From the NCBI GenBank assembly GCA_034190875.2, contig CM067351.1:4603926-4667925 (forward strand): a stretch of DNA of 64,000 nucleotides, given 5' to 3'. Source of the DNA: Urechis unicinctus. Lineage: Eukaryota; Annelida; Polychaeta; Xenopneusta; Urechidae. Shown piece after piece: positions 1-64,000 of the stretch. Position 1 is the first letter of the stretch; every line of letters starts with the position of its first letter. The notes beneath the pieces are model-generated. The model saw only the letters and a program-made list of their open reading frames with translations, did no database searches and was not told where the DNA came from. A program made the position numbers and the translations under genes.

Positions 1-1170
1 AGGCACTATATTTTAATATCATCCGACCCAGCTGTGAGACACGTGATGTGACTACATAGCGCGACGACGGATGCTGTATTTGCGCCAGATGACTTGGCAA
101 CTGGATGATTTTTCATTTACAATGATTGCACATAATGATGATATGAATGTCTATAATTCCCCAGGGGCATTTTTTTTACGCCTGCGATTGCTGTATTACA
201 ACAATCCAAATGTGATGTGACAAAGAAACATATAAATGATCAAACTAACATCATCTAATGTGTTCAATTCAATACACTGATAATGGACATCATTCTCCTT
301 TGGACGTAAGGTACCATAACAATATGTGAGCTGAAACAGAAAGCCATTATTAAGCATATCAACGGTCTCTTGATTCTATATTATGTTGCCCCTCCAATCG
401 AATCTCAATGAAAGCCGCGGCAAAACATTTTTCTAGCATTTAATGTTGAGTGTCGACACAATTATAATTTCGAAAAGCCTTTGATAAATCACAGTGAAGT
501 AAAGTAAATAAATCACTGTTTTTTCAAAAAAACAAAAAAAGTGATATAGAGTTAATGGTGTGGCTTAATTTCGGGTTATTAACTGTATGAGTGATTTAAT
601 TGCCATTGGTACACTGCAATTGGTACACTGGTACAGTTCCTGTGATTAACGATATGTAAGGCACCAATAAATAAACTACGGAATGTGTGGCAATCATTCG
701 CCAGGTGAAAATTACAATAACACTAATTCGTGTGGTTTTAGGTGGTGGCTTGAACATCCGCTATTATCGATACTGCCCTGATTAACAGAACACATCGTTA
801 TCCTACAGCATAACTGCTTTAAGGTGTGAGTGCCAGTATTGTTGAAATATATGTCGTTATGTCATCCCAGAAGTATAAATATATCAGATATGATAGGTGG
901 AATAAATTAGAAATAGATCTATGATTCAGAGTAGACAGTTTAGAGAGTTATTGTTATATTATCATACATCGTAAAATGCCTCGTAAATAACTTGTCCAAA
1001 TTTCCTACTTGATCTAATTGCTTGGTGAACGTCAATTTTACAATTGCAAAACATAAGCCAGATATAATACATTGAAAATAAGTCTCCTTCAAAGATATAG
1101 CTGTTTACTACGGTTTTGAATACAAGTATGATTTGCCGGCGTTTAGAAAAGACAACGGTGTCAAACGTCA
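1..1170. repeat. Unit 1, module A and following segment
   Basis: This stretch aligns by eye with 18963-20250 over its whole length, at an estimated 75-85% identity with many small indels. Shared landmarks are the CACGTGATGTGACTACATAG block near the start, the GCGCCAGATGACTTGGCAAC block, and the TTTGCCGGCGTTTAGAAAAG block near 1135. Its first 480 bases also match 17456-17720 and 63517-63830, so the 5' part is a four-copy module. The window opens inside this module, so its true left end is not visible. No reading frame is kept between copies. Confidence 0.8.
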
Positions 1171-1799
1171 TCGTAAGACTCGCGTTTTGTACCCAAATCA
1201 CATCGAAGTATTTGTTTCATTTTAGGGATTATGGGGAAAAAAAAGAGTTTTATTTCATATTTTTCAATCTGTGAGCATTTGACCAGATTTTATCGGACGG
1301 CCCAAAACGTCAAACAAACCAAGACGGCCGAAATTCGAACCAGATTGTTATTTGTTGAAATTCAGGTTGCCACATTGAGAGGGCTGTACATTGTGGTCAA
1401 GATCCTTCATAATATTTGGGAATACGAGCCTAGCTTGTTTGATGATTCAATGTCACTAACGCTGTTGCCTTGACGCTCAACCAATAGAAGGTATATTGGG
1501 TCATAAGGCCCTGATATTCTAATGGTGTGATTTCAGTCCCTAAAGAAAACACTTCTAATAGCTTAGTTATAAATTGCTATTTACAACACATCATGATCGT
1601 TATTAGATTAGAAGTGACTGACCAATTTATAATTTGACACATCACGTATTGTGCTTAGAGCTAGGAATCGCAATAGTTGCTAATATATCTACTATTGGAC
1701 ATGGAATCAAATACAGGCTCGATAGCCTTTGCAAGTAGGGTCATTTGAACACGCTGCACTAAAACAAATAAATATACAAATTAATTATAATTACATTTC
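1171..1799. other. Unmatched spacer, no gene seen
   Basis: I found no counterpart of this segment in the second unit, where 20250-25250 occupies the same place. An 80-codon frame at 1231-1473 has no recognisable motif and is probably chance. Nothing else is supported here. Confidence 0.4.
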
Positions 1800-2783
1800 C
1801 CCTCAAAAGGCGACCCATATAACCACTTATGCAGGTGAACCGGCTTCCCGAATTTGACACATTGAAGAGCCAACCCACTGGAACGAAAAGTGGTTCTCGT
1901 AACTTGCTGGGATAACAAACATTTTTTAAACTGTTAATATTGTATACAGCTTTCCAATGAGCATAACATTTCGTTTTACTATGCTCTCAATACTCATCGA
2001 AAGGTTCCTCGTCCTTCATGTGGCCACTAACGCATCATTTTGAGAGCTTAGTGCCTATTTTCTTTGCATCATCCAGAAAAAACAAGCCATACTTATGCGA
2101 ATAAAGCCTGCTATAGATGATTTGTCTTTGTCATGCAGTTGTTTATCAACATTTACAATCCTTGATGGTTGCAACAATCGAATTCAAACGTCCTAGTGGC
2201 ACATTTTAAAAGACTTCGTCTGCATTGCCAGCTTTAAGACCCAGTGGGCTTGTTGACTTTTGGGTTGTTTTTCGTAGATGTTACCCAAAGCTGCATTCCA
2301 GGGGGACTGACGATGAAACCGGGGTAAAGTTTATAAAGCAATGTGCGCCAAAGATATACCAAAATCGCTGGCAATACAATGCCAATCACATGTATGCGAG
2401 GCAGCTTTGTTGCCTCACGTTTATGGTAAACTCACATTCATACAGATTGATGAGGCGCTTTATGCTCCTTGTGGTATATTTCTCTCTTTAGAACCGATTA
2501 AGCTTGTTTAGTATACAGCCTCGGCAGTCTCCAAGATGGCTTAAAACACAATGGGTGTATGGGAAAACGGTATCATGCGCGTAATAATTAATTATTCATC
2601 TTTTGTTCTGATCCTATGACGTTCTTATGGCATAGCGTCAGTAACAAACATATCTTCCGACATCTAGATATTAATATTTACATTTGACATTGTGTTCCAG
2701 CAGGAAAAATACCTTAAATTAGTGATCATGTTAGCGTCAGTAGGTATGTCACCAGGACATGGAGAAGCAAAATATAATCGTGT
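1800..2783. repeat. Unit 1 segment paired with 25250-26153
   Basis: The match starts around the GCAGGTGAACCGGCTTC block (near 1831, partner near 25275) and ends at AGCAAAATATAATC (near 2766, partner near 26143). Identity is high but broken by indels, for example around the GGGGGACTG block near 2300 and 25720. Immediately after the last shared block the two copies become unrelated. This marks the left edge of the 19.5 kb block found only in unit 2. The 88-codon frame at 2225-2491 lies here and is not kept in the partner. Confidence 0.75.
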
Positions 2784-2830
2784 GATTAAGCTCGTTTAGT
2801 CGTCAATTGCGTTGTGCCCCACGAAATTTG

Positions 2831-61530: not shown

Positions 61531-63189
61531 ACCAGCATGAGCCAATTTTAACCTTGCTTAAACCCTTCACAGCTAACAATGGGTCACAACCGGCGTGTGC
61601 GGAAATGTCTTGGAATGCACGACCGCACATGTGATTGGGTAATGAGAGATAAAAAGTGGCGTTCCTCGGCTTTGTAACTGGAATTAAAGAAGGGTTTACG
61701 GCGGCAATGCGGTCACTGAAAACAGATCCTGACATCCGCCGTCGCAATTTTTGTTGTTGTCAGAAATAACGCTTGCATGCTCGTCTGTCTGATTTTTTCA
61801 AGTGTTATCATGGATGCTAAGACTAAAGCGCAAGGCAAACACATCCAAGTCTCTCCTTATACGTGTATACGCGGAAGTGAACACATCAACAGCGAGCTAG
61901 TTATAGGGCGCACGTAAAGATTTACAGCCAACTCGTGCGGTTCATGGTTTCAGGGAGGTACCAAACCAACAAAGCCAGACAGGTTTCTTCAACACATCAT
62001 ATGCATTTGCACAACTATGTTGAAAATTTATCTCCATAATATATTATCAAATTCGGGGCATAAAAAGAACGACGGCAGTTAGTTGCTGTATTTAACTTGG
62101 ATGCTAGATTAGTTTTACATTGTTTCCAATAATGCAATCGCCTTAGACCACTAGATATAACGCTTTATTTATAATATCGTATTTCGAATATGTAGTTCTA
62201 AGCATGGTTGGGCGAATATACATGTCACTTTTGTCCACACAAGATACAGTAACATACAATCGACTGTCATTGTTGTTTTTTTTTGCACAATACTGAAACG
62301 TTTACTTTTGACCCAAAAGATTTCTGTTGCGTCCTCGTCCTTGGTAACCAATTGGAGCCGCTAGATTAAGTTGTCTTTGCGCCATAGGTGTCTAACTAGA
62401 TTATCTGGCGTTTTGTTTTTTAAAACACTTCAGTAACAACGATGGTAGACTAGCAGATAAGCATGTAAGTACCTGGCAAATAGAGATAAACGCATGAACG
62501 GATATTCGGACAATCGATGAAGAGATATAAAAACGCTGACTATATTTCACAATGCATTGTGCACGTAGTTATTTGGTTATTTTCAACATTGTTTGAAAAA
62601 CAGTTAGCGTATCATAACAGGGAACCCCACATATTTGTAAGTATACACTGGATAGCAAAACGTCTATAACTATTCACCTCAGGAATCGATATGGCTTTGT
62701 CACACTCCTCTATATGTTTTGTAAAAAAACGGTTATCTTTATTGGGTTTATAGCGAACGTTCAGAAACAGTTGCCGTATGCTTACTTATCTACGCCGAAT
62801 CTCAAACCTAACCCAGCGTATTGACCCATACTATGTAGGCAGTGGAGAATAGCGTTACGTTGTCAACGATAAGCTACTCGGGTTAACAATTCATCACACA
62901 AATAGCAACGTATCAGTTAGTCTCGGAAGATTGCTCATCGACCATTGAGTCCATGTGACCAAAGGACAGGAACAACGACGTCCTATGAGGAGCAAGGATC
63001 CTGTATGGTTTCAATATAAAACACCTAATCGTATCGATATGGTTATGTCAAAAAATATGGCCTTATGCCACTGACACCGTGTGCGCTGTGTGGAAAGTGT
63101 GCTGTACCGATGCAAAGGTGCTTTATATGAATATCATCGCGTAGTCCAGGCCTTTATGTCCCTTTACTTACCAAGGTTCTCCGTATCCT
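61531..63189. other. Unit 2 segment weakly matched, no gene supported
   Basis: About 1.7 kb where unit 1 has 0.8 kb. A GC-richer patch at about 61540-61750 holds a 92-codon minus frame (61469-61747). Its middle part, PRNATFYLSLPNHMCGRAFQ and onward, looks less biased than other frames here, but I recognise no family. The rest shows only short frames such as minus 62169-62351. Confidence 0.35.
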
Positions 63190-63934
63190 TTGAGACCGTA
63201 GCTCATGTTGCAGGCATATAAGCAACGACCAAAGTAAATCACGCGCCACGGCAATATAACATAAAATCCTATCAAGCTTTGAGCGGCACTAGGCGTTCCA
63301 CACTATTGCTTTGTACGTAACTCCTGCATGTAAATATCACTTTGTAAATACTGTAAAGCAAGCATGATAGTCGACTTGTGATGTGATTTTTCCGAGTGTG
63401 TGTTTGCCGCGATCAAATGTCATGGGATCATGTTATCGTCGATTCAACTCACCAAATTAGCCAATGCACCCTAACGTAGAAGGATTAATTGCTTCACTTC
63501 CTCTTGTGACCGACCCATCAGTGAGGCACGTGATGTGACTACATAGCGCGACGACGGATGCTGCCTTTGCGCCAGATGACTTGGCAACTCGATTTACAAC
63601 GATTGCACATAATGATGATATGAATGTCTATATTTACACACGGGCAATAATTTTCCGCCTGCAACTGCTGTGTCAAAACAATCCAAATGCGATGACTTTG
63701 GACTTTGGCGTCACAATTGCAGACAATTAAACATATCAATGATGTGACTAAGATCATCCAGGGTGTTCAATTCAATACAGTAATAATTCTATCATTCACC
63801 TGCGAACGTATGGAAAGATTAGGGTATGCGTATTGAAACAGTTGCTTTTGAACAGCGATGAGTAGTACTATGTAATCTATGATATATGTTTCGTAAGCAT
63901 CATATAGCCTAATTTTCCAATCTGCATGCAGTAT
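63190..63934. repeat. Module A, copy 3
   Basis: Matches 17150-17780 and 18735-19330. Anchors are GCGGCACTAGGCGTTCCACA (63281), GCACGTGATGTGACTACATAG (63524) and GCGCCAGATGACTTGGCAAC (63568). It runs into a TA array at its right end as copy 1 does, so the same junction is reached at the end of both units. Confidence 0.8.
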
Positions 63935-64000
63935 ATGTATATATATATTTATATATATATATATATATATATATATATATATATATATATATATATATAT
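63935..64000. repeat. TA array, cut by the window end
   Basis: Alternating TA beginning with a short variant part (GTATATGTATATATATATTT) and continuing pure to the last base of the window. Its length is unknown. Confidence 0.95.

Follow-up and report, generated by a model that had tools for sequence, protein, structure and literature searches.

The 64,000-nucleotide stretch of Urechis unicinctus DNA analysed here (the window; positions 4603926-4667925 of contig CM067351.1, called C10 below, in a genome of 1.19 Gb and 926 contigs) is an inner slice of a cluster of related copies about 302 kb long. We assign a probability of roughly 0.8 to the reading that the window belongs to a locus-confined, layered segmental-duplication cluster, built of about a dozen partial tandem units together with inverted copies on its right-hand side. 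The cluster is best read as a large, layered example of an ordinary duplication process, lying beside a predicted 5-HT2-like receptor gene.

A preliminary description, made from the letters alone, had proposed that a diverged tandem duplication of an ~18 kb unit fills most of the window, and that both units keep the same order of segments and close with a module A followed by a TA array. Self-alignment of the window bore out the collinear diagonal: 13 blocks, strictly increasing on both axes, link positions 23-17762 (unit 1) to 18974-63878 (unit 2), covering 11799 of the 17761 bases of unit 1 and 12050 of the 45201 bases of unit 2. Counting gaps, the blocks are 59-76% identical; a realignment in which gaps were cheap gave 76-85% over aligned ungapped bases, with Kimura two-parameter distances of 0.17-0.29. 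A control search with reversed sequence gave two weak matches (E = 0.002 and 0.01), so the duplication lies far beyond chance. The proposed length of ~18 kb fits unit 1 but not unit 2, which spans 45 kb. Module A is present in four copies (A1-A4), and the units and modules are arranged as follows, types I and II being two groups in a tree of A copies:

1..390, plus strand: module A copy A1, type I, with segment B directly after it; opens unit 1 (self-alignment, A tree)
23..17762, plus strand: unit 1; closest relative is the unit at C10:4581.9-4598.7 kb (alignment, trees)
391..1178, plus strand: segment B of unit 1; pairs with unit 2 sequence as far as 20248
17189..17772, plus strand: module A copy A2, type II, with a TA array after it
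17787..18125, plus strand: TA array after A2
18282..18740, plus strand: segment X, with relatives at 21514-21925 and four other places in the cluster
18731..19316, plus strand: module A copy A3, type I; opens unit 2
18974..63878, plus strand: unit 2; closest relatives are inverted, at C10:4696-4703 kb and 4737-4744 kb
63258..63841, plus strand: module A copy A4, type II, with B-like sequence past its TA array
63932..64000, plus strand: TA array after A4, continuing out of the window

Copies A2 and A4 are both followed by a TA array, as had been described for the close of both units. The TA array is not the unit end, however, because B-like sequence continues past such arrays, both after A4 and its array (C10:4667968-4668719) and at C10:4576046-4576425.

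The surrounding sequence shows that the pair belongs to a longer array, with forward and inverted copies running from C10:4468156 to at least 4769820. When the 200 kb to the left (20 kb of them present as N) were joined to the window and this 264 kb was aligned to itself, 519 high-scoring segment pairs (HSPs) were obtained, 517 of them within the cluster; 515 of these 517 are forward, and their identity ranges from 58 to 99%. The remaining two are an unrelated inverted-repeat pair at 4434-4439 kb. Between 4468156 and 4667925, at least one paralogue was found for 138809 of 180238 readable, unmasked bases (77%), and mapping of 15 anchors from unit 1 showed that roughly a dozen partial units keep the segment order. 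On the left the cluster stops abruptly at 4468156, and none of the 4 kb before that point is covered. On the right, inverted copies occupy 4696-4703 kb and 4737-4744 kb, and copies run to about 4769820; one weak match lies at 4774.1-4774.5 kb, beyond which no match of at least 120 bases was found up to 4786925. The term macro-repeat, used in the preliminary description, thus holds in outline only: the tandem duplication is real, but some dozen partial units make it up, and units 1 and 2 sit on different branches.

These branches were apparent from trees of four segments: D (12 of 13 matches used, one being too short), E, F1 and G/H, with minimum copy lengths of 300, 300 and 500 bases for the last three, respectively. 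In all four trees the unit 1 copy pairs with a copy 22-23 kb upstream, and in all four the unit 2 copy groups with the right-hand inverted copies, weakly so for F1 (71/74). Because their nearest relatives differ, units 1 and 2 are not two products of one duplication, and the segment trees rule out a window made of two simple sister units. Pairwise difference among copies extends from under 3% to over 40%, gaps counted. Young rounds are represented by copies with 97.4% identity over 10.4 kb at a step of 10.26 kb, 97.7% over 3.4 kb at a step of 6.9 kb and 93.3% over 7.6 kb at a step of 23.2 kb.

Much of the additional length of unit 2 falls in a 19 kb stretch, and several simple or inverted repeats lie in or near it:

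21021..21220, plus strand: TA array within a unit 2 stretch absent from unit 1
22689..23952, plus strand: TA array, unit 2 only
26621..45686, plus strand: unit 2 stretch, 19 kb, with no forward paralogue in the 264 kb
31269..33444, plus strand: longest TA array of the window
33760..41096, no strand assigned: diverged inverted repeat, arms 33760-34272 and 40585-41096, 62% identity
37590..38032, plus strand: minisatellite with a 31-base unit, 14.3 copies, in the unit 2-only part
45711..46527, plus strand: additional partial copy of 50616-51800 within unit 2

Pieces of 26621-45686 recur inverted at C10:4702-4703 kb and 4729-4731 kb, forward at C10:4704.6-4705.8 kb and, with their order kept, on a second contig at C16:59097240-59099263; on C10, part of the extra sequence of unit 2 recurs at 4702.0-4705.8 kb and 4729.4-4730.6 kb. 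Since parts of it recur at these C10 and C16 places, the extra length is not simply inserted DNA. Part of it may be common to the right-hand branch of the cluster, in which case the unit 1 branch possibly lost that part. One arm of the inverted repeat at 33760-41096, together with the bases that follow it, also recurs at C10:4704.6-4705.8 kb.

We assessed the confinement of these sequences with three probes searched against the genome, the resulting counts being lower bounds. Window positions 5000-7000 gave 43 matches, of which 41 lie on C10 between 4470 and 4761 kb and two on C16. A probe for the A-B module gave 16 matches, all on C10 at 4501-4733 kb, and window positions 28000-31000, from the unit 2-only part, returned themselves and three minus-strand pieces at 4729.4-4730.6 kb. 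A control probe, the open frame of a DNA-polymerase-B-like transposon inside the cluster (C10:4528290-4529900), behaved differently: of its 3990 first-look candidates 40 were scored, and these lie on C1 to C16, with every one of the sixteen contigs represented. Against this scattered transposon, a dispersed repeat or transposable element is ruled out for the three probes; the genome-wide scatter of segments that would have pointed to ordinary dispersed repeats did not appear.

The two matches on C16 are recent copies. C16:59082926-59087890 is 95.2% identical to C10:4738773-4743804 across 5.0 kb, and C16:59098468-59101925 is 93.0% identical to C10:4759344-4762869 across 3.5 kb; their order agrees with that at C10:4738.8-4762.9 kb. 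This recent copy may be an interchromosomal duplication or a misplaced haplotype. It lies 0.4 Mb from the end of a 59.5 Mb contig; the main cluster, however, begins 4.47 Mb into the 74.6 Mb contig C10, a position that does not support the subtelomeric location that had been suggested.

The recurrence of module A bears on another explanation, that each unit is a large dead mobile element, present twice in tandem, with A as its terminal repeats. Each unit does carry module A at its start and at its end, and within unit 2 copy A3 matches A4 at 77%. A tree of the nine A copies of at least 250 bases nevertheless separates a type I (4561978, 4581887, 4603948, 4622656 and 4518539) from a type II (4574869, 4598059, 4621196 and 4667183), so that copies tend to group by start or end type across units and not within one element, although the support for this split (82/96) is below the strong threshold. 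The A-B probe found no A copies outside the cluster, B-like sequence follows the end copy of A, and the window frames scanned contain no element protein. The A tree, the A-B probe and the B sequence after A4 contradict a role of module A as the terminal repeats of one element and, with no dispersed copies found by the three probes, we regard a dead element as extremely improbable.

The same tree clarifies the association of module A with TA arrays. All four type II copies have a TA array within 200 bases downstream; the 1.5 kb downstream of each of the five type I copies hold none. As every type II copy and no type I copy has an adjacent array, the 'A then TA' succession was probably inherited within a single one of the two A lineages, which it marks; the idea of a single kind of A interrupted by a TA array was dropped after this tree. 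TA arrays are common in this region in any case, and with 13 in 199.8 kb of cluster against 9 in the 64 kb of left flank they are sparser inside the cluster than beside it. The core of module A (window positions 1-160 and relatives) shows 7-8% mismatch compared with a median of 20%, and contains the motif CACGTG; it is possibly a short conserved element.

We searched the window for genes by several routes. Neither a tRNA search nor an Rfam search at gathering score returned anything in the window. It contains 53 stop-to-stop frames of at least 90 amino acids; with the 22 TA-array frames left out, 31 were scanned, and none of these 31 matched a Pfam family at the curated cut-off (best match 0.0064). 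In comparisons between copies, the best 60 of 547 tblastx matches were spread over all frames, and mismatches in aligned blocks were about even over codon phase. Across 2491 open paired runs (Nei-Gojobori), the synonymous excess had a mean z of 0.45 (standard deviation 1.1, highest 4.3), and, judged by eye, the high-z runs were missing from most pairs of the family they belong to. The tblastx, codon-phase, open-run and Pfam results together count against coding units, very short exons apart. CpG in the window is 0.93, hardly depleted, as fits an invertebrate. A minus-strand open frame of 151 amino acids in the right part of the cluster has no Pfam match; from its appearance we take it, presumably, to resemble a mobile-element protein.

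These results also bear on the possibility that the units are a decayed or cryptic tandem gene family, made of small exons or of a gene for a long non-coding RNA, that grew under selection for copies. About a dozen units at steps of 7-23 kb, with copies arising and dying out, is what a gene family usually looks like; some short stretches, for example the first 160 bases of the window, in module A, and the conservation peaks described below, are better conserved than their surroundings, and a few open runs show a synonymous excess. Yet the coding signal was unconvincing by every measure above, and inspection by eye of the alignments showed gaps not in threes, both in the most conserved stretches and in the two phase-biased stretches at 4535941 and 4604896. 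For a structured RNA, in addition to the lack of an Rfam match, no hairpin was seen by eye to recur between units among 40 listed windows, and the strongest hairpins (4508926-4509135) sit in one unit. The excess of conservation is small, and the null used for it is blind to shared ancestry. A gene family is therefore unlikely, if the least so of the alternatives considered.

As far as tested, then, the units evolve close to neutrally. Given this and the lack of a detected gene in the units, the cluster probably has no specific role other than a tendency to rearrange. Its growth would have begun with a first pair of direct repeats, after which misaligned exchange between repeats would repeatedly have added tandem units. 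Each round would have duplicated at least one older unit, and steps of roughly 7, 10 and 23 kb would have resulted; inversions and deletions would later have reshaped the units while their sequence drifted. The TA arrays we take to be ordinary replication-slippage products of this genome, one of which was probably present in the type II A ancestor and carried along with it.

Several points weigh against this account of a segmental-duplication cluster grown by unequal exchange and free of a specific role. Unequal exchange is something we infer, and replication-based or circular-DNA routes could give the same pattern. TA arrays might have served as breakpoint seeds, but with the arrays masked during alignment, 24 of 1186 HSP ends fall near them compared with 52.3 +- 14.5 expected by sliding; HSP ends are, if anything, rarer there, and since they are not enriched, TA arrays do not explain the breakpoints. 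The right flank was covered for 58 of the 119 kb up to 4786925, 10 kb of the cluster to the left of the window consist of N, and a Pfam scan of frames of at least 90 amino acids could let very short exons escape. Finally, conservation along the units is less even than a shift null predicts: four peaks (0.216, 0.191, 0.190 and 0.189) rise above the maximum seen in 30 shifts (0.187), and the values vary more widely, with a standard deviation of 0.066 compared with 0.044 under the null. The excess is weak, because it is small and because this permissive null ignores shared ancestry; the peaks leave some room for functional elements, without showing function.

The gene beside the cluster gives such elements a conceivable target. 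Two minus-strand frames, C10:4460862-4461920 and 4462774-4463130, which we took as two exons, match Pfam 7tm_1 (7e-39 and 3.8e-7), with 5-HT2C as the best match in the PDB (1e-38), suggesting by sequence similarity a 5-HT2-like receptor of the rhodopsin family. Its 5' coding end points toward the cluster, about 5 kb to the left of the edge at 4468156. The units could accordingly be pictured as a regulatory array whose enhancers, insulators or non-coding transcripts act on the receptor gene, and the orientation and closeness of that gene fit the idea. What supports it, however, is proximity only: the conservation peaks are weak, and a tblastn search of the 264 kb with the receptor found no convincing copy (best E 1.3). 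We consider such an array very doubtful. A related and similarly speculative proposal, which we hold to be improbable, is a functional non-coding array in which each unit carries a conserved element (the core of module A, plus one or two more), and in which unit number, shifting fast by unequal exchange, either tunes the receptor gene or yields an array of non-coding transcripts. The left flank also holds two near-perfect tandem arrays, at C10:4419748-4420436 (229-base unit, 3.0 copies) and 4457703-4458115 (24-base unit, 17.2 copies).

Among known kinds of repeated DNA, the locus is best filed with local segmental-duplication clusters. Its copies reach at least 1 kb and are not ordinary dispersed repeats. 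The customary identity threshold for segmental duplications is at least 90%, a level reached by several pairs within the cluster (93-97.7%) and by the C10-C16 pair; unit 1 compared with unit 2 falls below it. Like other local segmental duplications, the cluster has layered tandem and inverted copies at one main locus and a 93-95% copy on another contig. Such duplications are usually described around genes, whereas here no gene was found in the units and many pairs are below 90%.

A second comparison is with macrosatellites, which are chromosome-specific or occur on two or more chromosomes; the human examples DXZ4 and D4Z4 have GC-rich units of 3.0 and 3.3 kb in 11-12 to more than 100 copies (PMC3465993). 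The cluster shares with them tandem units of kilobase scale that occupy only one or a few sites, here C10 and C16. Unlike those of DXZ4 and D4Z4, its units are AT-rich, irregular and 7-45 kb long; they differ by up to 40%, and some are inverted. A macrosatellite with many regular, near-identical units does not match steps of 7-45 kb and identities of 58-99%. The Sp185/333 cluster of the purple sea urchin, an example of tandem gene clusters that diversify with the help of repeats, is likewise an invertebrate cluster of duplicated segments in which simple repeats are involved, but its units contain a two-exon gene (PMC3091723), and no gene was found in the units here. A literature search returned nothing that we recognised as this locus.

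Collectively, these results place duplication rounds of very different ages at one locus of the U. unicinctus genome, in DNA in which no genes were detected. For this reason, the mechanics of tandem growth, inversion and interchromosomal copying could be followed here with selection on genes as a smaller confounder. If the weak conservation peaks proved to be real, the cluster would instead represent an unrecognised regulatory array beside a receptor gene.

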